Program-made: the position numbers and the translations under genes
Notes under the pieces: generated by a model
Told to the model about the DNA's origin: nothing
Databases searched by the model: none
The model's input: only the letters and a program-made list of their open reading frames with translations
NCBI RefSeq assembly: GCF_029267515.1
Contig: NZ_JAJUIS010000005.1
Span: 124,001-188,000 of the forward strand
Source of the DNA: Seleniivibrio woodruffii
GTDB taxonomy: Bacteria > Chrysiogenota > Deferribacteres > Deferribacterales > Geovibrionaceae
Direction: 5' to 3'
DNA length: 64,000 nucleotides
Shown: positions 34,289 through 48,913 of the stretch, one piece after another
How positions within the stretch are numbered: position 1 is the stretch's first letter
Layout: each line of letters opens with the position of its first letter

Positions 34289-34822
34289 TTATTCGGGAAA
34301 AATTGCGAACTGTCTTCCGCGTATTGAACAGACGGGCGTTTCATCCTGAAAAACGGTTGTTCTTTTGATATTTACTATTCCGTTTGATAAACTGAACGAT
34401 AGGTTTCTTGTATAGCTTCCGCCTGTGTCGCTTTTCATTATGCAGTATCCGAGACTGCGCAGAAGAGATTCCGCCGCGTGCACATTTTTTACACCTATGC
34501 CGTTGGTTTCGCTTTCAACGCTGAACATGGCACTGCCGCCGAACAGTTTCACCTCTGTTTCGCGTTTTTCCGCACCACAGCCGGACATCTTTTTGTGCAT
34601 ATACAAAATAGCGCAGTCAACGTATTTCATGGCGTCCTCTCCGCGCTTTATGGCGCCCAGAGCAGTCGGCAGTACACAATGGCTTATCATTCCGGCTTTC
34701 AGTCTCGGAACGTACATCGTTATGCTGACGCATGATCCCAGAACGGTATTGACGACCGTGTGCCTGTCGCTGAAAAATATCTCACCCGGTTTAAGGTATA
34801 CGCGTCCGAAACTGCAATACAT
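34289..34822 (-). CDS. cheD: Chemoreceptor glutamine deamidase CheD
   Basis: 177 residues. Catalytic Cys31 in VLGSCVS and His48 in ISHCVLP follow the family. It deamidates specific glutamines in chemoreceptors, tuning their signal. Here no cheC is nearby, its usual binding partner. The gene begins one base after the cheR stop, last in the chemotaxis operon. No terminator is evident in the 206 bases between its stop and the next leftward gene. Confidence 0.92.
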   Translation of the reverse strand: MYCSFGRVYLKPGEIFFSDRHTVVNTVLGSCVSITMYVPRLKAGMISHCVLPTALGAIKRGEDAMKYVDCAILYMHKKMSGCGAEKRETEVKLFGGSAMFSVESETNGIGVKNVHAAESLLRSLGYCIMKSDTGGSYTRNLSFSLSNGIVNIKRTTVFQDETPVCSIRGRQFAIFPE

Positions 34823-34823
34823 T

Positions 34824-35687
34824 TTATATCCTTCTGAGAATAGTCGGTGCTGTCGGTCTGGCGGCTATATTCATGCCGTGCACCGATTCCGAATGTCCGA
34901 GGAAAACGTAGCCACCCTCCGCGGTGCATCTGCATATCCTGTTTATGATGCTCTCCTGAGTCGGCTGATCGAAATATATTATCACGTTGCGACAGAACGA
35001 AACGTCCATCTGAACAGGAAGCCTGTAAAAATCGTCCATAAGGTTCAGCCTGAAGAACGAGACCTTTTCACGCAGTTCAGGTCTTATACGGACTATGGTG
35101 TTGTCAGTCTTCGATCGCATCAGATATTTCTTTTTAAAATCCGCAGGTATCGCCGCCGCCTTATCTATCCTGTATATCCCGTTAACAGCCTTTTCCAGCA
35201 CAGTGCAGTTTATGTCGCTGGCATAAATACGGAAATTTCCGTCTGTCCCGAAAAACTCCGCAAGCACCATGGCAAGCGTATAGGGTTCTTCCCCTGTCGA
35301 ACAGGCGCTGCTCCACACGTTCAGACATCTTTTCGTTCCTGCGCCCTCGTCCGCAAAAGCCGGAAGCAGTTTTTCCGTCAGATAAGTAAAATGGTTAGGC
35401 TCACGAAAGAAATCGGTCTTGTTGGTGGTGATGGCGTCTATAAGCCTCAGTTTTTCATCGTCTCCGGCCGGATTGGAGTCGCTGAACACCATCGACAGAT
35501 ATTCTGTATATGAGCCTAATCCAAGCGTTTTCAACCGTTTGCGGAGCCTCCCCTCCACCATGTTCTTTTTGGTGATGGGGAGCTTTATCCCGCAGTTATC
35601 ATGTATGAACACCTGTATTCTGGCAAACTCGTCGGGTGCAAGTTTCTGCCCGTAAATATCTGCGTCAGAATAAACAGTTGTATCCAT
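34824..35687 (-). CDS. cheR: Chemoreceptor methyltransferase CheR
   Basis: 287 residues. N-terminal helical domain (KLPITKKNMVEGRLRKRL), then the SAM-binding domain with WSSACSTGEEPYTLAM, the beta-subdomain and CRNVIIYFD. It methylates glutamates on chemoreceptors during adaptation. A matching CheB methylesterase is not in the window. Two receptors of the cluster end in DFESF and NVELF, which resemble the NWETF tether that binds CheR. Confidence 0.93.
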   Translation of the reverse strand: MDTTVYSDADIYGQKLAPDEFARIQVFIHDNCGIKLPITKKNMVEGRLRKRLKTLGLGSYTEYLSMVFSDSNPAGDDEKLRLIDAITTNKTDFFREPNHFTYLTEKLLPAFADEGAGTKRCLNVWSSACSTGEEPYTLAMVLAEFFGTDGNFRIYASDINCTVLEKAVNGIYRIDKAAAIPADFKKKYLMRSKTDNTIVRIRPELREKVSFFRLNLMDDFYRLPVQMDVSFCRNVIIYFDQPTQESIINRICRCTAEGGYVFLGHSESVHGMNIAARPTAPTILRRI

Positions 35688-35696
35688 ATTTTCCTA

Positions 35697-36203
35697 TTAT
35701 CCCGCAGCGGTTTCTGCCGCTGCTCCGGTACACGCACCAATCTCCGTCATGGAGAATACCGCGTTCACATCCAGAATTATCACAAAACCGTTGTCTTTTT
35801 TCGCCATTCCGGCGATGAAATCCGTGTTCAGGTGCGTGCCTATTCTCGGCGCATCCTCTATGGTTTCGTGTTCGAACTCCACAACCTCCTGAACGGAATC
35901 GGCAAGGGCTCCGAGAACCGTCGATTCGTTATCTATCACCACCTCTACGATGATGATACAGGTGTTTACAGTTCTTTCTGTGTCCCCCAGACGGAATTTC
36001 TTTTTCAGATCCACCACCGGAACGACATTTCCCCGCAGGTTTATCACACCGACCATAAAGTCGGGGGTATGGGGAACTTTTGTGACGCTGGAAAAATCCA
36101 GCACCTCACGGACAGACATTATGTCCACCCCGTAAACCTCATCAGCCAGTTTAAAGGTTAGCACCTGACTTATGTCAGTGCCTCCTGTAACTTTTTCTTC
36201 CAT
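35697..36203 (-). CDS. cheW: Chemotaxis coupling protein CheW
   Basis: 168 residues, single CheW domain: FKLADEVYGVDIMSVREV, VPHTPDFMVGVINLRGNVVP and a C-terminal DSVQEVVEF strand. It bridges receptors and CheA. It lies 9 bases after cheR in operon order and 11 bases after the receptor gene. Confidence 0.93.
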   Translation of the reverse strand: MEEKVTGGTDISQVLTFKLADEVYGVDIMSVREVLDFSSVTKVPHTPDFMVGVINLRGNVVPVVDLKKKFRLGDTERTVNTCIIIVEVVIDNESTVLGALADSVQEVVEFEHETIEDAPRIGTHLNTDFIAGMAKKDNGFVIILDVNAVFSMTEIGACTGAAAETAAG

Positions 36204-36214
36204 TACGCACCGCC

Positions 36215-38092
36215 TCAGAAACTTTCAAAATCGGCATCAACGCGGTCTTTTTTGCCGTCTGTCATATCAAGTGAAATACCCTCTGTCTCTTTTCCGTTCT
36301 TTTTATGGGATGGGAAAACGGGCTTGTCGAAGTGGGGCACATGCGAAACCGATGTCTTTTTGACGGGTTTTGCCGGTGCGTGTCTGACAGCTCCGTCGGA
36401 CTTCATTTTAAAGAACGAGACAGCCTGCTGAAGCGCCTCGGACTGGCTGGAAAGCTCTTCTGCCGTCGCCGCCATCTCCTCAGATGCGCCCGCGTTCTTC
36501 TGTATGACCTGATCAAGCTGCTGTATGGCAGTGTTTATCTGCTCGCCGCCAGTACGCATTTCATTGCTGCCTGCGGTTATCTCCTGAACCAGTTCGGATG
36601 TTTTCTGTATATCGGGAAGTATCTGCATCAGCAGAACGCCGGCTTTTTCGGCTATATCGACGCTGGAAGAGGACAGGTCGCTTATCTCCCGTGCCGCCTC
36701 CTGACTGCGCTCAGCCAGTTTACGCACTTCCGATGCCACAACGGCGAAACCTTTTCCGTGTTCGCCCGCTCTCGCCGCTTCAATAGCCGCGTTCAGAGCC
36801 AGAAGATTCGTCTGTCTGGCTATCTCCTCAATGATAGATATTTTGTCGGCTATATCTTTCATGGCTTTCACAGTCTTCTGCACAGCCTCGCCGCCTTCCT
36901 TTGCGTCGCCGGACGCTTTCAGAGCTATTTTTTCTGTTTGAAGGGCGTTGTCTGCGTTCTGGTTGATGTTGGAAGCCATCTCCTCCATGGAAGCGGACGC
37001 CTCTTCTGCGCTCGCCGCCTGTTCAGTTGCGCCCTGAGACATATCCTGTGCGGCGCTTGAAAGTTCGCGGCTGCCTATGGCGACGTTGTCCGCAGAGACA
37101 CGCACTTCGGTGATGATGCTTTTAAGTTTGTCCACCATGTTTTTAAGAGCTTCCGCAAGCTGACCGACCTCGTCTTTCTGATCGATGTCCAGTTTCGCGT
37201 CAAGATTTCCCTCGGAAAGTTCTTTCGCAAAGGCGACTCCTTTCGAAACGGGACCGGTTATGCCTTTGGTAATTACTATTGCGGCTATGATACCCACAAC
37301 CACTGCACCGATAATTATGATTATTATCATGCTAGTAACTGATTTAAACGCGGCAAGCATCTCTTCGGTGCTGGCTGCATTCTCGCTTTCAGCAAGTTTC
37401 TGAGCGATTGCACCTGATTCAACCATCCCTTTATCAACTTCACCCTGCCTGTTGATTGAATCAATTACGACATTCAGCTTTTCTTTATATGAATCCAAAG
37501 ATGTTACAGCCTGCGGGACACCTGCCAGCATCCCCCTTACGATATCATAATCCTTGTCTATTTTGTCTAGCAGGGAAAGATCCCCTGTATAATAAACGTC
37601 TCTGATGAGAACTCTTATGTTCATAAATTCGCTCATTGTTTTGCCGTCAGCACCAGCCTCTTCAAGTTTTGCTTTTACGTTTGCACCATCCAAAGCCATC
37701 TGCTCAAAGGCTGCTTTTTTGGTGTTTGTTGCTTTAACATATTCATCAAAGCCCGATTTATAATCGTTTATTGCTTTTATCAGCTCATCAAGTGTTTTAT
37801 CCTGCTCTTCCGAACCAATCACTTTTGCCTCTTCAGCTTTTTTTACAGCTTCCGCAAGAGATTCTATAGTTGCATCAATAGATTCCTGAGTCCCTCTTAG
37901 CCTGTAATCCCTAAGAGCCATTCTGGCATTCTTATAGTTGATGGTTACGGAAGATAATCCGTCGGAATACTTCGCACCGTTTAAAACAACATTAAGACCG
38001 TTATAGGAAACAAGCCCCACTATAATGGTAAGGGCGATGACAAGTCCGAAACCCATCATCAGCTTCACACCGATTTTAAGATTCTTGAACAT
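36215..38092 (-). CDS. Methyl-accepting chemotaxis protein with a four-helix-bundle sensor
   Basis: 625 residues: membrane helix at about 10-32, periplasmic helical sensor (4HB-like) up to about 255, second membrane helix about 256-280 (rich in Ile), HAMP, then the signalling hairpin with [30 protein letters not shown] tip. C-terminal DFESF looks like a CheR tether. It is inside the chemotaxis operon between cheA and cheW. Ligand unknown. Confidence 0.92.
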
Positions 38093-38103
38093 AAAGCCTC
38101 CTT

Positions 38104-40167
38104 TTAACCTATATCATTGTAAATCTTCATAATATCTATGATCAGAGCCACCGAACCGTCGCCAAGGACGGACGCGCCGGAGATACAGTCGATATCCTTG
38201 AATGCTTTTCCCAGAGATTTGATCACCGTCTGGTGGTCGCCCACAACGCTGTCCACAACAAACCCCACGCGTCTGCCGTCAACGCTTATGATGACTATCT
38301 GCTGTATCTCCGGTTCCTCACCCCTGATATCGAAGAAACCGCGCAGGGGCACATAAGGCACCAGTTCATTACGAACCATGATGATTCTGCGCCCCGAACC
38401 GCTTCTGTTCTCCGAACGGTTAAATTCGATGCACTCGTTGACAATGGAGAGCGGCAGTATGAAGAACTGACCGCCGATGGTCACAAGGAGTCCGTCGATT
38501 ATCGCCAGCGTCAGAGGGAGTTTCAGAACAATGGTCGTTCCGGTTCCCTCCGCACTGTTTATCTCAATCGTGCCCCGCAAAGCCTCAATATTTCTCCGCA
38601 CAACGTCCATCCCAACTCCTCTTCCCGAAACGCTGGAAACAGAAGCCGCCGTGGAAAAACCGGAGGCAAATATCAAATCATATATATCTCTGTCGGAAAG
38701 TTCGGCGTTCTCGGAAACAAGCCCTTTCGCTTTTGCTTTTTCAAGCACCGCCTTCCTGTTTATTCCTCTTCCGTCGTCGGTTATCTCAATAAGCACGCTG
38801 TCGCCGGAATGGCTTGCCTGTAGGCTTATATGCCCCTTCGCCGGTTTTCCAGCCGCAATCCTGTCCTCCGGTTTTTCAATGCCGTGGTCTATGCTGTTGC
38901 GTATAAGGTGCACCAGAGGATCGCCCAGTTTTTCAATGACCGTTTTGTCTATCTCCGTCTCGCCTCCGAATGTGACAAGCTCAATTTCCTTGCCAAGCTC
39001 AGCCGAAAGATCGCGCACAAGTCTTTTAAATCTGTTGAAAGTGGAACCTATCTCAAGCATCCGTATGCTCATGGTGTTATCGCGCAGTTCCCAGACGAGG
39101 CGTTCCACCTCTTCAGCAACTTTCAGCATGTCCTGATCGTTCTTCCGTGAGGCAACCTGACTGAGCCTCGCCTGCACAGTTACAAGCTCGCCGACAAGAT
39201 CAACAAGAGAATCCAGTCTCTCCGAAGGAACTCTTATGGATGAAGCGGTAACTTCCGCAGAAAGGGTCTTTTTTTCATTAACGTTCTTAACGTGAACCTG
39301 CTCCATAAGAGCGGCTTCCACAGCTCCTTCCGAAACAATCCCCTTCTCAACCATTAATTCGCCGAGGCGCTTCTTTTCGTTCAGAACTTCGCCGAGCTGT
39401 TCCTGAGTAAGGCATCCGCGCTCAAGCAGTATTTCGCCCAGCTTCTTTTCACGATCGTCGAAAGTTTCCGCCACAGGCTGTATGGTTATCTCCGCATCGT
39501 CCTCCACAAAAATAAAAACGTCGCGGATATCGTTCTCCGGTTTGTCCGTGGTCAGAATAATATCCCATGACAGATAGCAGCCCTCCGGCTGAATCTCGTT
39601 AAGCTCCGGAACGTCCGCAGTGTGTGCTACGACTGTTGCGGAACCCATCTCCGCAAGTTCTTTCAGAAGCAGAGAGGGGTTTGTGCCGTTCATCATAATG
39701 TTGTGTGAAGGTCTGAAAGTTATCCGGTATGTCCGCAATACTCCGTCTGCAGTTTTATACGGCTGTTTTTCAGTCTGCACCTGCTGTTTCTGTATGTTCG
39801 CCGCCCGCGTAAAAAACTCAGATATCTCAACCGCAACAGGCGAATCAGCCCGCATTTCCGGGTCACTCAGCATTTCCCGGATTATGTCGCAAGCCTTCAG
39901 AGAATAGTCCAGCATTGGCTTGGTGACGCATATTACATTGCTGCGCACCATATCGTATGCGGTCTCTATGCTGTGTACCAGCGCGGCAATATTATCGAAT
40001 CCGAACATCGCGCCGGAGCCCTTTATGGTGTGCATGGCACGGAAAACACGGGCTATAAGCTCTGCGCTGTCCGGTGTGTTTTCCAGTTCCAGAAGCGATT
40101 CCTCCAGTTCCTGAAGCAACTCCGTAGCCTCGTTAACAAATACCTGCTGGTTTGAATCCAATGTCAT
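38104..40167 (-). CDS. cheA: Chemotaxis histidine kinase CheA with an inserted repeat module
   Basis: 687 residues. HPt domain with phospho-His46 (AMHTIKGSGAMFGF), then about residues 235-290 a duplicated 24-residue-like unit (LGEILLERGCLTQEQLGEVL and LGELMVEKGIVSEGAVEAAL) resembling the GSPII_E_N/MshEN repeat. Then the dimer helices, ATPase (LVHLIRNSIDHGIE, DDGRGI, GRGVGMDVV) and the CheW-like domain ending IYNDIG. The usual CheY-binding P2 is not evident; the repeat may replace it or bind c-di-GMP as MshEN does (inference). Confidence 0.92.
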   Translation of the reverse strand: MTLDSNQQVFVNEATELLQELEESLLELENTPDSAELIARVFRAMHTIKGSGAMFGFDNIAALVHSIETAYDMVRSNVICVTKPMLDYSLKACDIIREMLSDPEMRADSPVAVEISEFFTRAANIQKQQVQTEKQPYKTADGVLRTYRITFRPSHNIMMNGTNPSLLLKELAEMGSATVVAHTADVPELNEIQPEGCYLSWDIILTTDKPENDIRDVFIFVEDDAEITIQPVAETFDDREKKLGEILLERGCLTQEQLGEVLNEKKRLGELMVEKGIVSEGAVEAALMEQVHVKNVNEKKTLSAEVTASSIRVPSERLDSLVDLVGELVTVQARLSQVASRKNDQDMLKVAEEVERLVWELRDNTMSIRMLEIGSTFNRFKRLVRDLSAELGKEIELVTFGGETEIDKTVIEKLGDPLVHLIRNSIDHGIEKPEDRIAAGKPAKGHISLQASHSGDSVLIEITDDGRGINRKAVLEKAKAKGLVSENAELSDRDIYDLIFASGFSTAASVSSVSGRGVGMDVVRRNIEALRGTIEINSAEGTGTTIVLKLPLTLAIIDGLLVTIGGQFFILPLSIVNECIEFNRSENRSGSGRRIIMVRNELVPYVPLRGFFDIRGEEPEIQQIVIISVDGRRVGFVVDSVVGDHQTVIKSLGKAFKDIDCISGASVLGDGSVALIIDIMKIYNDIG

Positions 40168-40170
40168 AGA

Positions 40171-40536
40171 TTAACCCAGAACCTTTTTGACAACGGTCAC
40201 AAGCTGTTCCGGCTTAAAAGGTTTCACAATCCATCCGGTCGCTCCGGCAGATTTGCCCTCCTGCTTTTTAGAATCCTGTGACTCTGTTGTCAGCATTATG
40301 ATAGGAACAAAACGAAACTCCGGTTTCTGCCTGAGCTCTTTTATAAGTGAAATACCGTCCATATTTGGCATATTGAGGTCGGTAACAACCATGTCGCATT
40401 TACTCACGGCTGTCTTTGCCAGGGCATCCTTCCCATCGCAAGCCTCAATAACGTTGTAACCCTCTTTGTTCAGTGTAAACTTAACCATCTGGCGGATACT
40501 TGCCGAATCATCGACGGATAGAATAGTTTTAGACAT
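40171..40536 (-). CDS. cheY: Chemotaxis response regulator CheY
   Basis: 121 residues, a stand-alone receiver domain: acid pocket D9/D10, phospho-acceptor D53 in VVTDLNMP, Thr in MLTTES and Lys in WIVKPF. ATG 40536 is chosen since the domain begins there; eight more codons upstream are in frame. It overlaps the STAS gene by 8 bases and is followed 3 bases on by cheA. Confidence 0.93.
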   Translation of the reverse strand: MSKTILSVDDSASIRQMVKFTLNKEGYNVIEACDGKDALAKTAVSKCDMVVTDLNMPNMDGISLIKELRQKPEFRFVPIIMLTTESQDSKKQEGKSAGATGWIVKPFKPEQLVTVVKKVLG

Positions 40537-40876
40537 CAGACCTCTCCTTAACCAATGCACAGTTGTTGTATCTGTCTATCACACAGCCTTTAACTCTGGT
40601 GAATCCCGTAAAGCAGTCCATGCAAAGAAGCTCATTCTTTTTTCCGGTGACGTCAAACCGCTTGTCTTTAGAAAGCGCCGCTCTGTGGGCGGAGCAAAAA
40701 AGCTGCAAAAGCGTCAGATCGGCTCTTTCCACATCGCCAACCTTTATCTCAACCGAATCCGAACTCTGGAGAGCCTCCCTTAAAACAGAGTGAAGCTCTA
40801 TCACATAACCGACTGTCAGATCGCCTGAAATTTCTATAACCGTTTTGTCTTCCTCTACTGAAGTTTCAATACTCAC
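40529..40876 (-). CDS. STAS-domain protein in the chemotaxis operon
   Basis: 115 residues with the STAS fold (TVIEISGDLTVGYVIELHSVL, then DVERADLTLLQLFCSAHRAA). The phosphorylatable Ser of anti-sigma antagonists is replaced around DLTLLQL. A C-terminal tail has four Cys (LLCMDCF, GCVIDRYNNC), which could bind metal or form disulfides. Its place before cheY suggests a scaffolding or modulating part in signalling; function not known. Confidence 0.8.
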   Translation of the reverse strand: MSIETSVEEDKTVIEISGDLTVGYVIELHSVLREALQSSDSVEIKVGDVERADLTLLQLFCSAHRAALSKDKRFDVTGKKNELLCMDCFTGFTRVKGCVIDRYNNCALVKERSDV

Positions 40877-40894
40877 TTTTTCTCTCCCGCCTGA

Positions 40895-42100
40895 TCAGAA
40901 TAGTTCCACGTTGTCGTCTGCCAGAGAAGCAGCCTTCACTCCGGCATTTCCGGCTTTGCGCTCTGTCATGACCCTTCTTTCCGACTCCATGGTATAAAGC
41001 AGCTTCACATGCTCGCTGAGGCTCTTCAGCTCTTTGCTGAAATCCATTTTTGAAACATCGCGAAGCCCTGCTGAAATTCTTCCGAGGTCATTTTTCATGA
41101 TGTCCATAGGGTCTATAACGTGCTCAAGCCTCTGCCTGTTTATGTCCTGATACTGCATGGAAACAACCATATCGTTGATATCCGAAGCAAGGTTGATGGA
41201 ACTTTGCCTCAGCCCCGCCATGATGCCGTTCGCGTCAAGAATCGCTCTGTCTAGGATATTAAGCGCCGTATCAACCTCTTCATGGGATTTTGCGGATGTA
41301 TCTTTTATGAAATTGACATCCTCAACGGATTTGTCGTGTATATCGTTTATCTGTCCGGCGATGTCGTCCACCGCGACCCGTATCTCATATGCGAATTTGT
41401 TTGATTTTTCCGACAGCTTGCGTATCTCGTCGGCAACAACGGCAAAACCTCTGCCGTGTTCCCCCGCCCTTGCCGCTTCTATTGCAGCATTCAACGCAAG
41501 AAGGTTTGTCTGGTCGGCGATATATTCCACGTTTGAAACTATCACCTTTATCCCCTGTATCTCGTCTATCACCGCCGAAAGACGGCTGTTGGTCTCTTTG
41601 GCGTATTCTCCTGTCTGTTCCAGTTCCCGTATTACCAAAACAAGCGCACGTCTGCTGGTATCCACAAAATTTCCGCCGTTTTTTGCAGACGTAAAGCTGT
41701 TCAGTGCTCGCCCAGCTTCGTCTGACTGCTCTGTCGCTTTGTCCGCTATGCTCCCGAAATTTGCTGAAATGATGTTGTTTGCCTCTTCACTGTCGGCGAT
41801 GACCTTTTTCATCTGTTCCTGAAAAACCGTAAGAATTGACGAATAGTCGGCAACAATGGCGCTGACCGGAACGAGATCTCTGTTTATGCCATCAATCTGA
41901 CCAAGAAGATTCTTCTCCCTGTCGGTTTTGACCCTTTCCAAAGCATCAGAGACAACTGCTCTTAACATGACAGCGGTCAGCACGAGTATCGGTATGCTTG
42001 CTATAAGACGGATGTGGATGGAATCAAGGCAAATTACCCCCGCCTGAATGAATATCAGGATGATAAGTAAAGAAAGTTTTTTTCTGTCAAACAAACTCAT
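40895..42100 (-). CDS. Membrane-anchored chemoreceptor lacking a periplasmic sensor
   Basis: 401 residues. Two close membrane helices at about 9-24 and 31-49 leave only a few residues outside, so it has no periplasmic sensing domain. The cytosolic part has a signalling hairpin with [30 protein letters not shown]. It ends in NVELF, like the CheR tether NWETF. It probably senses an internal or membrane state. First gene of the chemotaxis operon; its ribosome site is enclosed in a hairpin (42109-42134). Confidence 0.88.
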
Positions 42101-43108: not shown

Positions 43109-44551
43109 ATGATAAAGGGGTATGAGGAAACGGTTTTTCCTCTGTCATTACTTTCAATGATCTCACAAGTTGTTATAATTGATGATGAAAAAGAACTGAC
43201 AGACATATATGTCAGGTATCTGGGACACATTGGCGTCAACGACATCTCAGCCATAAACGACTCCAGAGAGTTTTTTAAAACGGCAGAAAGGCTTAATCCT
43301 GCCATAATCCTTCTCGATATGAATATGCCTTATCACAACGGCGAAGAAGTTCTTGATTTTATCATGCAAAAGATACCGGAAGCCTCGGTTGTTATGATGA
43401 TAGAAAAGAACGAAACGGAATCGACGGTCAGATGTCTCCAAAAAGGAGCGGTCAGCTTTATAGTCAAACCTGTGGACAAGGACGCTCTTGCAAACGTTAT
43501 TCTGCGTGCACTGGAAGCGAACAGAGGGTTCCACGGAAAGAGAGTGATAAACTTTTCCGAAAACCGCGAAGAGTACCCGTTTTTCAACGATATCGTAACA
43601 GGCAACTCCAAAATGCTTGAAATATTCCGGTATCTCAACTTCATTTCAGAAAGCAGCTTTCCCGTTCTTATTACAGGCGAAACGGGAACCGGAAAGGAGC
43701 TTTTTGCCGAGGCTGTCCATAAAGCAAGCGGGCGCAGAGGTCCTTATGTTGCGGTAAATATATCCGGTCTTGACGACAACATGTTCACCGATACCCTTTT
43801 CGGGCATGTGAAAGGAGCCTTCACAGGGGCGGACAAAGCCCGCAAAGGACTCGTTGCCGAAGCGGACAACGGAACCCTGTTTCTGGACGAGATAGGCGAT
43901 CTGCACGAATCGGCACAGATAAAGCTGCTGCGGCTTTTGCAGGAAAAGGTGTATATGCCGCTGGGTTCCGACAGGAACACGCGGGCGAACGTACGCATTA
44001 TCGCCGCCACCAGCGTAAACCTGAAAAATAATGTTAAGACAGGAAAATTCAGGAAGGATCTGCTGTTCAGAATATCTACCCACTGCATCACCATCCCGCC
44101 GCTGCGGGAAAGAAAGGACGACATAGAGATACTTGCGCTGAACTTTTATAACAAAGCGCTTCTGGAATCAGGCTGTCAGATGTCCGCTTCTCTGCCCCAT
44201 GGCATAGGCGAAATTCTGAAAAACTACAGCTTTCCGGGCAACGTGCGTCAGCTTCAGGCGATAATGAACGACCTCGCCCTTATCACCAGAGGAAGGCATC
44301 TCAGCGGACGCGATATGATATCTTTCATGCGCAGGCACGACATAGGCGTAAGGATAGGCGCGAAGGAACATACTTTGGAACCGTTCTGCTATTCAGGAGA
44401 ATTTCCGACCATAAAAAGAATGGAATCGCTCCTCGTAAGCTCCGCCATAAGTCACAGCAAAGGCAACATAACAGACGCAGCTAAGATTCTTGGCATCACG
44501 CGGCAGACTCTCCACAGACTTATCAAAAACCTAGACAAGCTGCAGACATAA
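43109..44551 (+). CDS. Sigma-54-dependent response regulator (NtrC family)
   Basis: 480 residues. Receiver with D25/D26 and phospho-acceptor D70 (ILLDMNMP), AAA+ domain from about 165: Walker A GETGTGKE (190-197), sigma-54 contact GAFTGA (236-241), Walker B GTLFLDEIGDL, arginine finger region FRKDLLFRIS. C-terminal Fis-type helix-turn-helix (GNITDAAKILGITRQTLHRLIK). The start is uncertain: ATG 43109 and ATG 43157 (MISQVVIIDDE) both lack a good ribosome site; the second fits the family start better. No sensor kinase is adjacent. It is convergent with the hydrogenase operon and could regulate it, but that is a guess. Confidence 0.9.
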   Translation: MIKGYEETVFPLSLLSMISQVVIIDDEKELTDIYVRYLGHIGVNDISAINDSREFFKTAERLNPAIILLDMNMPYHNGEEVLDFIMQKIPEASVVMMIEKNETESTVRCLQKGAVSFIVKPVDKDALANVILRALEANRGFHGKRVINFSENREEYPFFNDIVTGNSKMLEIFRYLNFISESSFPVLITGETGTGKELFAEAVHKASGRRGPYVAVNISGLDDNMFTDTLFGHVKGAFTGADKARKGLVAEADNGTLFLDEIGDLHESAQIKLLRLLQEKVYMPLGSDRNTRANVRIIAATSVNLKNNVKTGKFRKDLLFRISTHCITIPPLRERKDDIEILALNFYNKALLESGCQMSASLPHGIGEILKNYSFPGNVRQLQAIMNDLALITRGRHLSGRDMISFMRRHDIGVRIGAKEHTLEPFCYSGEFPTIKRMESLLVSSAISHSKGNITDAAKILGITRQTLHRLIKNLDKLQT

Positions 44552-44588: not shown

Positions 44589-46508
44589 TTACATAAATCT
44601 TTCTATCACGCCGTTCATCAGAGAAACTATCTTCTCCGTCTCCGCCTGAAGCTCCGAAAGCTCGCCGTCAACCGCTTCGCCTCTGGCTATCTTTCCCCGT
44701 ATCCTCTCTGCCATGTCATGTAGACTGCGGTGGACGGTTTCAATCTCTCTGTAGTCAGGATCGCTGCCGAACATCTCATATCCGCGCCCTCTGTAAAAGT
44801 CAGTAAACGCGCAGTTCTCGTGACTGTCTATGATTATCGGACGCTTATACATTGCGCCGTGGTATATGTTCTTGGTCATAAGGACGTGGCTGACCTTCGC
44901 ATGGATAACAGGCAGAACGGAGGAGCTGAGAGTAAACTTTTTAAGCTCTTTCTCCGATTCGTCCAGAAGCCCGACAACGGTGTCAACACCGCTGACCATT
45001 GATTCTATACTGCCTGAGTTCACGTCGCTCATCCTTGCCACCTCCTCAATGTTCGCCGCAATCTGGGTCATGGCGGCGGACTGCTGCTGAACGGAGGATG
45101 CGATATGGGTGATGTTCGCGCTGAGATCGTCCACAGAGCTTTGTATCGTGCCGAACATGCTGTTTGCGTCGTTAACCTTTTCAAGCTGTACACCGACTTT
45201 ATTCGTAACAGTCTCGGCATTATCTACTGCGTTCTGCACTTTAAGCTGCATGGATTTGACCACAGAAGATATATTCGAAGCGGATTCGTTGGTCTTCTCC
45301 GCCAGTTTACGCACCTCGTCCGCAACAACTGCGAAACCGCGTCCGGCATCTCCTGCGCGCGCCGCCTCAATGGCTGCGTTAAGTGCCAGCAGGTTCGTCT
45401 GTTCCGTTATATCTGTGATTACCTTCACTATCTCGCCCACCTCACGGGACGACTCCAGAAGTTCTCCCATCTCACCAGCCAGAAGTTTAACGATACCGCC
45501 AACCTCATTGGATATGGCAGTGGTTTCCTGCATTACATCCAGCCCTTTTCTGGACATCTCAAGGGTCTGCTCCGCCTTTACGGACGAATCACTTATATTC
45601 TCTGCTGAATCCCGAACGGTTGTGCTTATCTCTTCGCTTGCCGCGGCAACCTCGCCGGCAAGCCTCATAGTCTCTGTATTCATCTGTTTAATCTGCATAC
45701 TGGTGAGGGTCAGCGGTAACACCTGTTCCATCATATTTGAAATAGACCTGAAAGTATGAAGTATGTCCGTTCCTATGGTCTGCATGAATTTATTGTATCT
45801 GTCCGATATCTCGCCCATCTCGTCGTTGGTTTTAATGTCCGATTCCAGGCTAAGGTCAAGGTTCTCAGCCGCCTGAACTATAGTGTCCTGCAATCTTCCG
45901 ACGTTGCGTATCACCAGTTTTGAAACAAGGAAATATATGATGTAAATCATCAGACAGCCGCTGATTATGACGAATATATCCGATATCAGCGACATACTCT
46001 GAACGTTATTCAGGGATTTGCGGCTGAGCTTCACGTAATAATATGAGTTTACAGACCCTTCCTGCCATTCAGTGTGGCAGCGCATACAGTATCCTATTGT
46101 TTTAACCGGAAACAGGTATACGTTATTGTCCCCTTCAGGGTGCATGTCCTCTTTATCTGTGAGTATGTACGCGTCAACTTTGGTGTTCACGCGCTTATCC
46201 TGCGATGAATAGGTGATTGTGCCGTCGGGCTTTATAAGGGAAAACTCCGTTACGTCCTCATATTTTCCTATCTCCTCGATAAGACTGTTAAAGGTCATCA
46301 TGTTGCCCTTTTTCAGTGCGTCGAAGGTGGACATATATATCATGTCTTTAAGGTAATTCATGTACCGGTTGAGCGATTTCTCAACCATCCTGAGCTTTAT
46401 GCTTTCAAAGATGATTGTACCGAATATGGTGAACGCTATGATGATCACCGTGGCGATAGCCATCTTGTGTTTGAGAGATAAACGGTATTTTCTGTCAATG
46501 TTCATCAT
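44589..46508 (-). CDS. Chemoreceptor with a periplasmic c-type heme motif and a C-terminal CZB domain
   Basis: 639 residues. Membrane helix about 16-34, periplasmic sensor about 35-170 containing YCMRCHTEW (C141, C144, H145: a CxxCH heme c site), second membrane helix about 173-195, HAMP-like linker, signalling hairpin with [30 protein letters not shown]. The C-terminal 120 residues form a zinc-binding CZB-like domain (His in [37 protein letters not shown]). ATGA overlap with the hydrogenase small subunit gene shows coupled translation. Geobacter has heme-containing chemoreceptors; pairing with a hydrogenase is unusual. It may read the redox state set by H2. Confidence 0.9.
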
Positions 46509-47464
46509 TTTCTGCCACCCCCAAGCACGTTCTTTTTAAAGTCGTTCCACGGAAGATCTTCGATATTCCGCGATTCGTAATAGATATTCTCTTTGAAGGG
46601 CCATCCGTTGTGGGTACAGCCGACGCAGGGAGCGTTGCTTTCAACGCATACGCTCACGCCTCCGTTCCAGCGCCTTGTTGGGCAGTCGGACTTCGTTATG
46701 GTACCGCGGCACCCTTTTTTCAGCAGACACGAGTGTTTATCCGCATCAAAATCCTTCAGGTAGATATCCTGTGAAAAATACTGAAAGCGACCGCAGTTGT
46801 TATGAATGAGGTTGCCGAAATACTGCTGAGGTACGCCGTCTTTCATTGGCGGCATTTTTCCGCTGCCGAGGATATAGGCGACCGTACCCATGAGCCTGTC
46901 GGGGTGCGCCGGACAGCCGGGAATTTTTATCAGCGGCTTGCTGATACCCTGCTTACGCATATACTGCTCAATATCTATTGCTCCGGTCTCGTTCCTGCCG
47001 GAAGCAGGTATCCCGCCGGAAACCGCGCAGGTTCCGCAGGCAACAACAGCATAAGCCTTCTGAATGTGCTTTTTCAACGCTTCGTAGAGTGGTTCCTCTC
47101 CCAGCAGGCAGGCTTTTTTCATACGCTGCGGGATGCTTCCTTCAAGGACAAGGACGTGTCCGCCTGCGGATGTGACCTCCTCAAGCTGCTGAATGTACCC
47201 ATGCCCCTGACTGAAAGACAGGTTAGGATGCACCTGCACTCTCACCAGCCGAGTAACAAAATCTATGAAATCGGTCTCGTTGCCGTATGTCATGGAGACG
47301 GAACAGCCTGTGCAGCTCTGCCCCTGAACAAACACTATCTGCGGGCGCTTCGAAGCGGCAATTCTCATGAACCCCTCGGCTATATCCGCCGCAAAAACCT
47401 CCGCGCCGATTACCGCCACCGATATATCTCTGCATCTTTTGATGAAATCTCTTCTTGTCAGCAT
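46505..47464 (-). CDS. [NiFe] hydrogenase small subunit, Tat-exported, three predicted [4Fe-4S] clusters
   Basis: 319 residues. Tat motif RRDFIK at 4-9 followed by a moderately hydrophobic stretch. Proximal cluster C51, C54, C146, C184 ([20 protein letters not shown]). Distal cluster H221, C224, C246, C252. Medial cluster C261, C273, C280, C283: position 273 is Cys where standard group 1 enzymes have Pro and a [3Fe-4S] cluster. No extra proximal Cys of O2-tolerant enzymes (CTGCS, not CTCCS). No C-terminal membrane anchor. It lies 9 bases after the large-subunit gene, the reverse of the usual order. Confidence 0.93.
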
Positions 47465-47473
47465 GTTTCCACC

Positions 47474-48913
47474 TCAATGAACCGAACAGGCGGTGCAGGG
47501 ATCGAAACTTCTTATGACCCTGCCGACCTCTATGGAACCGCTGTCGCCGCCGAAGCGCACCGGAGTTCCAAGAACCGCCTTCTCCGCCACACCATGCTTT
47601 CCTGCTGCCGTGGGACCGAAGTTCCATGTTGACGGAACTATCATTTTATATTCGGTCACTCTGCCGTCGTATGCCTTTATGTGGTGGATGAGCGCGCCGC
47701 GCGCCGCCAGCGAGAAGCCTATGCCCTCACCCGTCAGCTTCTTTTGCAGGTCAACGTGGGCGATAGTGGGCTTGCCCAGGACGAAATCCTCAGAACGCTC
47801 GAACAGATAGTTGCATATTTTGCGCGATTCGTAAGCCCGCGCCAGAAGCCTGCCCATCACTGACGAGCGGATGGAGTTCTGACCGAATCTCGCAAGAAGC
47901 TGTCTGAATCCTGAATCGTTGGACACCGCAGCCCGCGCCAGAGGTCCCGTTTCAAGGGGAAAACCGTTATAGCGCGGAGCCTTTATCCAACTGTAAGCAC
48001 CCTTTGCCGATTCGTTGGGGCTGCCGTCCGGATTGTAATATGAGGAGTTCAGGAACTCCTTAACCATCTTATAGTCAAAGGCTCTCTTTTCGCCGCTGAC
48101 GATTACGCCGGAGGTGAAGAGATATCCCTTTTTGCTTTTAAGTGAATCATGAGCATAAAAGGTGTCGTATGCCCCGCCTATTCTGAAATATTCAGGGTAC
48201 CGCTCCGCAAGCTCCATCACGTCAGGGATGAAAGCCTCGTTAACAAACGCCGCAGTATCGCTGAGCACCCGGTAATATTTCATAAGTGTGTCGGTGGTTA
48301 TCTCCGTTGTGATTCCGCCCGGCAGAAGCGCATGAATAAAGGGCACTTTTCCGCCGATGAGAGCCAGACCGGAAGCCGCTTCGGCGCGTATCTTCAGCGT
48401 CTGAAAATAGTGCAGGGCAAAGCGTCTCGCCGTGCCTTTGTCGCGCACATAATCTCCTGGGGTTTTGTTTATGACAAATTTGGTGCCGGAAGAACCTATC
48501 CAGTCGGATATGTTTCTCATCTCCGCGTCGTTGCCGGTGTACCCGGCGGCGGCTGTGTAGTCTATATAGTCGGGGGAACAGAGATTGTAGAAATGGAGAA
48601 GGTGGTCGGTGACGATGTGCAGCCCAAGTATCATGTCCCTGAGAACCTGACCGTTGTGGGGCGGCACAACTCTGTATATCTGCTCCAGAGCGGTTATGGA
48701 GGAGATACCGTGAACCTCGTGACATACCCCGCAAACACGCTGTGCAATGCGGGCGGAATCAACGGGATGGCGGTTTAAAAGTAGCCTTTCAAGCCCGCGG
48801 TACATATTTCCGGCGATGCGCACTTTTGAGACCCTGCCTCCATCAACAACAGTGCTGACACTCATGTGTCCTTCAATGCGGCTGACAGGGTCAACAGACA
48901 ATAAGTTAGACAT
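47474..48913 (-). CDS. [NiFe] hydrogenase large (catalytic) subunit without a C-terminal propeptide
   Basis: 479 residues. Ni-Fe ligands are in RVCGVCHEVHG (C61, C64) and DPCTACSVH (C473, C476). RIEGH at 12-16 and KAPRYNGFPLETGPLAR are family motifs. The protein stops at H479, exactly where maturation proteases cut normal large subunits, so no protease is needed. This is known for regulatory H2 sensors (HoxC/HupV type). No hyp genes, no protease and no cytochrome b subunit are near. AGAGGA stands before the ATG. It is first in an operon with the small subunit and a heme chemoreceptor. Confidence 0.94.
   Translation of the reverse strand: MSNLLSVDPVSRIEGHMSVSTVVDGGRVSKVRIAGNMYRGLERLLLNRHPVDSARIAQRVCGVCHEVHGISSITALEQIYRVVPPHNGQVLRDMILGLHIVTDHLLHFYNLCSPDYIDYTAAAGYTGNDAEMRNISDWIGSSGTKFVINKTPGDYVRDKGTARRFALHYFQTLKIRAEAASGLALIGGKVPFIHALLPGGITTEITTDTLMKYYRVLSDTAAFVNEAFIPDVMELAERYPEYFRIGGAYDTFYAHDSLKSKKGYLFTSGVIVSGEKRAFDYKMVKEFLNSSYYNPDGSPNESAKGAYSWIKAPRYNGFPLETGPLARAAVSNDSGFRQLLARFGQNSIRSSVMGRLLARAYESRKICNYLFERSEDFVLGKPTIAHVDLQKKLTGEGIGFSLAARGALIHHIKAYDGRVTEYKMIVPSTWNFGPTAAGKHGVAEKAVLGTPVRFGGDSGSIEVGRVIRSFDPCTACSVH

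Follow-up and report, generated by a model that had tools for sequence, protein, structure and literature searches.

Positions 44,589 to 48,913 of a 64,000-nucleotide stretch of Seleniivibrio woodruffii DNA (contig NZ_JAJUIS010000005.1, positions 124,001 to 188,000; the whole stretch is called the window below) carry three adjoining genes, which encode the large and small subunits of a [NiFe] hydrogenase and a chemoreceptor with a heme motif. Related bacteria share the pairing of hydrogenase and receptor at over 50 sites, which makes it probable that the trio senses H2 and allows the cells to navigate by the gas or to react to it in some other way. Judged from the sequence, a probability of about 0.72 was given to the reading that the three genes make up one periplasmic [NiFe] H2 sensor, which reduces the heme of the receptor and signals to CheA. 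The H2-sensor interpretation had been put forward in a first-pass annotation of the window, and it is supported by the present analysis.

The hydrogenase-receptor operon

According to the open reading frames (ORFs), the large subunit (48913-47474), the small subunit (47464-46505) and the receptor (46508-44589) follow one another on the minus strand. A 9-base gap separates the large-subunit stop codon from the ATG of the small subunit, and the small-subunit TGA and the receptor ATG share an ATGA overlap. The features of the operon are:

47474..48913, minus strand: [NiFe] hydrogenase large subunit, 479 amino acids, no C-terminal extension (Pfam PF00374 NiFeSe_Hases, 3e-93)
48707..48739, minus strand: L1 active-site motif RVCGVCHEVHG (alignment and comparison with reference enzymes)
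47477..47503, minus strand: C-terminal active-site motif DPCTACSVH, immediately followed by the stop codon (sequence)
46505..47464, minus strand: [NiFe] hydrogenase small subunit, 319 amino acids, no C-terminal membrane anchor (Pfam NiFe_hyd_SSU_C, 9e-26; Oxidored_q6, 4e-24)
47438..47458, minus strand: twin-arginine (Tat) motif TRRDFIK (sequence)
44589..46508, minus strand: chemoreceptor, 639 amino acids, with the order membrane helix, periplasmic heme Cache-like domain, membrane helix, HAMP-like domain, methyl-accepting chemotaxis protein (MCP) signalling domain and CZB-like domain (Pfam; AlphaFold model of the first 210 residues)
46020..46388, minus strand: periplasmic Cache-like domain, about residues 41-163 (model pLDDT, the predicted local distance difference test score, 81; fold search)
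46074..46088, minus strand: c-type heme motif CMRCH, residues 141-145 (C141, C144 and H145 identical in 57/57 aligned sensor domains)
45030..45491, minus strand: MCP signalling domain (PF00015 MCPsignal, 3e-43)
44700..44888, minus strand: CZB-like (chemoreceptor zinc-binding) C-terminal domain (PF13682, 3e-5; 24.7 bits, below the cut-off of 29.4)

The first-pass annotation had described a complete [NiFe] pair joined to a chemoreceptor by the short gap and the overlap, and the ORFs, the sequence and the Pfam matches bear this out. It had also claimed a large-subunit C-terminus already in trimmed form, a Tat-type small-subunit N-terminus and a periplasmic CxxCH in the receptor. All three were found again: the large subunit ends ...RSFDPCTACSVH-stop, the small subunit begins with MLTRRDFIK, and CMRCH lies between two predicted membrane helices. 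As it had stated, no cytochrome b, hyp gene or maturation protease stands beside the operon. It had overlooked two features, the CZB-like domain and the presence of a paralogous trio elsewhere in the genome.

The nearest solved relatives of the large subunit are the Desulfovibrio periplasmic [NiFeSe] and [NiFe] enzymes, and the window enzyme retains RIEGH, the L1 cysteines, the canopy Arg of PRY and the Asp of DPC. The CxxCH of the large subunit was considered as a heme site and rejected, as it is the L1 Ni-ligand motif. The PRY motif occurs in nearly all relatives that were read; the canopy Arg is lost in L050, which has TPQY, and in the Desulfuromonas kinase-linked enzymes read (L060, L062 and L143), which have AMHY or AMLY for APRY. 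Loss of the canopy Arg strongly slows the turnover of [NiFe] enzymes, and such slow turnover would be a better fit for sensing than for respiration. At the gas-channel positions Val or Ile was found with Leu, as against Ile with Phe in HoxC/HupV; given the roles of these residues, the window-type combination would be consistent with an anaerobic setting.

In the alignment of the small subunit with its [NiFeSe] counterpart, the three cluster sites are all covered, and the medial site has four Cys. All cluster cysteines are retained, and so is every cluster required for leading electrons out. The twin arginine was present in 43 of the 43 small subunits read from the family.

For the heme domain of the window receptor, no match was obtained in a Pfam search, and the best hit of a sequence search against the PDB had an E-value of 0.92; a fold search was therefore used. 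The AlphaFold model of the first 210 residues (pLDDT 81) shows a Cache-like sheet flanked by two membrane helices. Its best fold matches were the sensor domains of WalK/YycG, KinD, DctB and CitA, with the Geobacter heme sensor GSU0935 lower in the list (E 0.016). The sCache_heme domains (DUF3365/Tll0287; GSU0582/GSU0935 in Geobacter) likewise combine a periplasmic Cache-like fold with CxxCH and are fused to MCP, kinase or GGDEF/EAL modules (PMC12889525). By its modelled fold and its motif the window domain is a relative of this family; it is counted as a relative and not as a member because the PF11845 (sCache_heme) profile gave no significant match to the window receptor, and the lineage B receptor L146 reached an E-value of only 0.023.

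In the alignment of 57 sensor domains, a single residue reaches 80% of the rows or more at just 14 columns, of which C141, C144, H145, G68 and F73 are invariant. The heme Cys/Cys/His stay identical although identity over most of the domain sinks to 15-23%, and diheme motifs in some sensor lineages predict two hemes. Service as the electron acceptor is the simplest reason for such strict retention of the heme, and no other electron acceptor is conserved in the operons. It is improbable that the hydrogenase and the receptor instead cooperate through protein contact or a conformational change, the heme being structural. The exact signal passing between HoxBC and HoxJ is still under investigation (PMC6978683), which speaks for such a mode. 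However, hardly any feature of this highly diverged domain other than the heme motif is invariant, two hemes are predicted in some lineages, and the small subunit has the full cluster set to lead electrons out.

The preferred reading, electron transfer from hydrogenase to receptor heme, is based on the observed gene order, conservation, motifs and output swapping, on the lack of an extension and of a local protease, and on a predicted fold. From these we infer export, docking, heme loading, electron transfer and taxis, together with the direction of the response, in the following way. The hydrogenase pair would mature in the cytoplasm without C-terminal cleavage, and the folded pair would be exported by Tat and dock on the Cache-like domain of the receptor. 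Electrons from H2 oxidised at the Ni-Fe site would travel along the three iron-sulfur clusters and reduce the receptor's c-type heme. The resulting redox change would shift the transmembrane helices and alter CheA activity, which would let the cell navigate by H2 (H2-taxis). Among relatives, this front end would drive a histidine kinase, an HPt-type kinase or a cyclic di-GMP (c-di-GMP) enzyme.

Conservation of the trio and exchange of outputs

Across Deferribacterota, Chrysiogenota-like genomes and Desulfobacterota, about 58 loci carry the trio; with this conservation, the arrangement is more than chance. Large subunits that end in DPCxxCxxH and share an operon with a heme chemoreceptor, for which the first-pass annotation had recommended a genome search, proved to be numerous and conserved. 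The survey was almost confined to these three groups, and the one scan that reached further used the window-type heme domain only.

At 17 Deferribacterales loci, a large subunit, a small subunit and a membrane heme sensor were present, and the alignment places their heme domains in one family. The outputs at these loci were an MCP with CZB (8), a shorter MCP (6) and PAS-PAS-GGDEF with or without EAL (3). In Desulfuromonas, the same front end is joined to PAS-HisKA-HATPase kinases (L060, L062, L064, L065 and L143). More distant sensors include Desulfuromonas-type MCPs (L144, L146 and others), L180 and the diheme MCPs (L100, L101 and L107) of the Chrysiogenota-like trio, which was found in three genomes. 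The window-type heme-domain profile matched the distant sensors at about 30-72 bits. Thus the heme domain is retained while the output varies from MCP (most loci) to HisKA kinase, HPt kinase, GGDEF and GGDEF-EAL, and this swapping of outputs behind a constant heme domain argues strongly for signalling.

That the neighbourhood reflects chance or hitch-hiking, with no common function, is extremely improbable. Orphan copies of the sensor exist, and one hydrogenase locus (L198) has no sensor, as chance would allow. Against this, the gene order is kept at the about 58 divergent loci in spite of differing outputs, and across these loci identity to the window proteins falls to 32-37% for the large subunits and to 15-23% for the sensor domains.

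Several loci depart from the usual arrangement. At L038 (G007:C1:2696000-2712000), the operon is naturally disrupted by a transposase-like gene, which has inserted between the small subunit and the receptor and changes the final residues of the former. At L097/L063 (G011 contig C5), a heme PAS-GGDEF-EAL sensor adjoins a pyruvate-kinase-like gene; in the relative L050 the hydrogenase genes lie between these two, and at L097/L063 the hydrogenase has apparently been lost and the sensor kept. At L050/L066, GGDEF and EAL lie in separate reading frames, unlike in the fused relatives, possibly through a frameshift or a split gene.

Unextended and tailed enzymes

At every sensor-linked locus, zero residues follow the final His of the C-terminal motif. 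When large subunits with enough downstream sequence were counted (short flanks, such as L187, L194, L201, L206, L212 and others, were left out), a membrane CxxCH protein lay downstream of 38 of 39 unextended enzymes as against 0 of 15 extended ones. The sole exception was L198 (G137:C67:3300-11500), where an unextended large subunit and a small subunit have no detectable sensor downstream. Several tailed enzymes carry proteases and HybB-type genes in place of the sensor.

A search blind to neighbouring genes was made in 395 Desulfobacterota genomes with a DNA pattern that marks the unextended C-terminus. It gave 32 sites in 27 genomes, and the reversed-pattern control gave 0 sites in the same search. 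After other kinds of hydrogenase and already known sites had been removed, 19 readable loci remained, and at all 19 a small subunit with a Tat-like start was followed by a membrane heme sensor. Sixteen of these sensors are MCPs. The other three (L252, L255 and L256) are diheme sensors fused to HPt and HATPase, each making a transmembrane CheA-like kinase beside an unextended hydrogenase. L219, L220, L222, L223, L226, L232, L233, L235 and L258 were set aside as not group-1-like; these sites show DPCISCSVH and CGICS-type or unrecognised L1 motifs, and no Tat-type small subunit was seen alongside.

In the hydrogenase tree, which contains some long branches, the window enzyme falls outside the tailed respiratory enzymes, and the latter group with moderate support (82/74). 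The window clade is also separate from HoxC/HupV, which sit on a long branch of their own. The tree proposed in the first-pass annotation speaks for its reading with moderate support, placing the window enzyme outside respiratory group 1.

This placement also bears on the possibility that the pair is a respiratory uptake hydrogenase feeding a periplasmic cytochrome c pool, with the receptor only co-expressed or reading the pool generally (energy taxis). The nearest solved relatives are indeed respiratory Desulfovibrio enzymes, and other multiheme cytochromes exist in these genomes. Such a role is nevertheless unlikely: the receptor is the only electron acceptor gene conserved alongside, the tailed relatives of the same class have hybB-type partners and proteases and never a receptor, and a change of output to kinases and GGDEF enzymes is unexpected in a respiratory operon. 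The AMHY/AMLY substitutions of the Desulfuromonas kinase-linked enzymes would likewise be odd in an enzyme built for high flux.

Four points weigh against a dedicated H2 sensor. First, related heme sensors occur without an adjoining hydrogenase (L063, L098, L099, L145 and L147-L150). Second, the unextended C-terminus and the sensor link fit a single event on the tree, on one side of the 82/74 branch, so that 38/39 versus 0/15 does not stand for many independent events and the Fisher p-value of 2e-12 overstates independence. Multiple independent origins of the sensor link were considered and are not claimed, as the tree fits one change; the weight lies in the survival of the link through deep divergence and not in the p-value. 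Third, CxxCH was required to call a sensor, which makes the count of heme conservation partly circular, although not the sensor-bearing fraction. Fourth, heme-Cache domains fused to signalling modules (PF11845) have been reported as nitric oxide (NO) sensors, and no hydrogenase is mentioned in that report (2026 preprint, PMC12889525).

The last point raises the alternative that the receptor senses NO or another heme ligand, and that the hydrogenase keeps the heme ferrous for ligand binding. The signalling-associated sCache_heme domain does bind NO tightly (PMC12889525), but this alternative is very unlikely here. Other heme sensors of these genomes manage without a hydrogenase, the profile that underlies the NO report does not significantly match the window domain, and a dedicated H2 input merely for priming seems costly. 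The trio suggests that signalling heme-Cache domains need not all be NO sensors; the published ones are described as NO sensors or redox proteins.

As to the orphan heme MCPs, L145, L147, L148, L149 and L150 belong to Desulfuromonadia, and several of them adjoin chemotaxis-type genes.

Relation to known systems and genomic setting

HoxBC/HupUV with HoxJ (HydDB group 2b) resemble the window system in that a hydrogenase serves as the H2 sensor and the large subunit is unextended (HoxC and HupV end in DPCMVCTVH); a PD[YF] motif is common to HoxC and the window enzyme. However, HoxBC resides in the cytoplasm and works through a histidine kinase (PMC6978683), whereas the window small subunit has a Tat motif and is paired with a transmembrane heme receptor. 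The window enzyme also branches apart from HoxC/HupV and has Leu at the gas-channel site where these have Phe. As the Tat and tree tests fail for membership, the window system would work like HoxBC/HupUV and is not one of them.

Both subunits find their best solved match in HysAB, the periplasmic [NiFeSe] enzyme of Desulfovibrio, which shares the Tat motif and the three-cluster small subunit with a four-Cys medial site. HysAB is a respiratory enzyme with no known receptor partner, and its large subunit HysA has a C-terminal extension (the unprocessed chain has 507 amino acids and the motif ends at 492). From respiratory group 1 enzymes in general, the window enzyme differs by the missing extension and by having no cytochrome b, HybB or cytochrome c3 partner alongside. 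The receptor itself resembles MCPs in its signalling domain and its two predicted membrane helices.

Two putative HydDB classes come close to the proposed signalling. The [FeFe] group C2, 'Chemotactic (putative)', was proposed to signal H2 via MCPs (PMC5037454); it is an unrelated enzyme class, the window enzyme being [NiFe], and no heme receptor is mentioned in the table of that paper. The [NiFe] group 2c, 'Diguanylate cyclase-linked (putative)' (PMC5037454), is similar in that a [NiFe] enzyme feeds a c-di-GMP output, as at L048-L050, and differs as a group 2 class; it was compared by its description. Swimming towards H2 is known in the methanogen Methanococcus maripaludis (Brileya 2013, as cited in PMC4266047). 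A literature search for hydrogenases in H2-taxis turned up only the C2 listing and this hydrogenotaxis; neither a [NiFe] hydrogenase paired with a chemoreceptor nor a bacterial [NiFe] H2-taxis receptor was found to have been described. The first-pass statement that no such version had been described thus agrees with the search as far as [NiFe] enzymes are concerned, but, given the C2 listing, signalling from a hydrogenase to a chemoreceptor is not an entirely novel idea.

The trio is a real and conserved variant of enzyme-based H2 sensing, apparently undescribed, whose function we infer. It likely represents a family of periplasmic [NiFe] H2 sensors with several deep lineages, in which an exported hydrogenase would act on a transmembrane c-heme receptor with interchangeable output. 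If so, no [NiFe] system for H2-taxis would have been described before it, and it would be a sensor whose heme-receptor redox state is set by a separate periplasmic enzyme. H2 is a main currency of anaerobic sediments, and the trio offers a concrete receptor with which bacterial H2-taxis becomes directly testable. It would also explain a set of [NiFe] enzymes that fit a respiratory role poorly, and it yields a sequence rule that separates sensor from respiratory enzymes: a Tat motif, no extension and an adjoining heme sensor.

The window lies in a 2.83 Mb genome. The second, paralogous trio is on contig C13 (L045, G000 C13:162000-178000); its unextended large subunit is 51% identical to that of the window, and the small subunit is accompanied by a shorter heme MCP that lacks CZB. 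The genome also encodes a group-3-like enzyme (L052) and two ordinary tailed group 1 enzymes (C19 and C26). HypF was found on another contig, and TatC and cytochrome c assembly genes are present in the genome. Its three HycI-type proteases lie on C19, C26 and C14, the contigs of the tailed hydrogenases, and none was found near either trio. A further [NiFe] hydrogenase of this genome (L051, G000 C13:183000-197000) lies some 20 kb away from the second trio; it is cytosolic and group-2-like, has no Tat motif and an 11-residue tail, and is flanked by two histidine kinases, one with sCache and one with PAS. Beyond the operon, the window contains a chemotaxis cluster:

34289..42100, minus strand: CheD, CheR, CheW, MCP, CheA, CheY, STAS protein and MCP-like protein (ORFs; Pfam for CheA, CheW, CheR, CheD and the MCP-like protein)

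A sigma-54 response regulator gene (window 43109-44551, plus strand) is convergent with the receptor gene, and such a regulator adjoins the operon in two congeners as well (L035 and L036).

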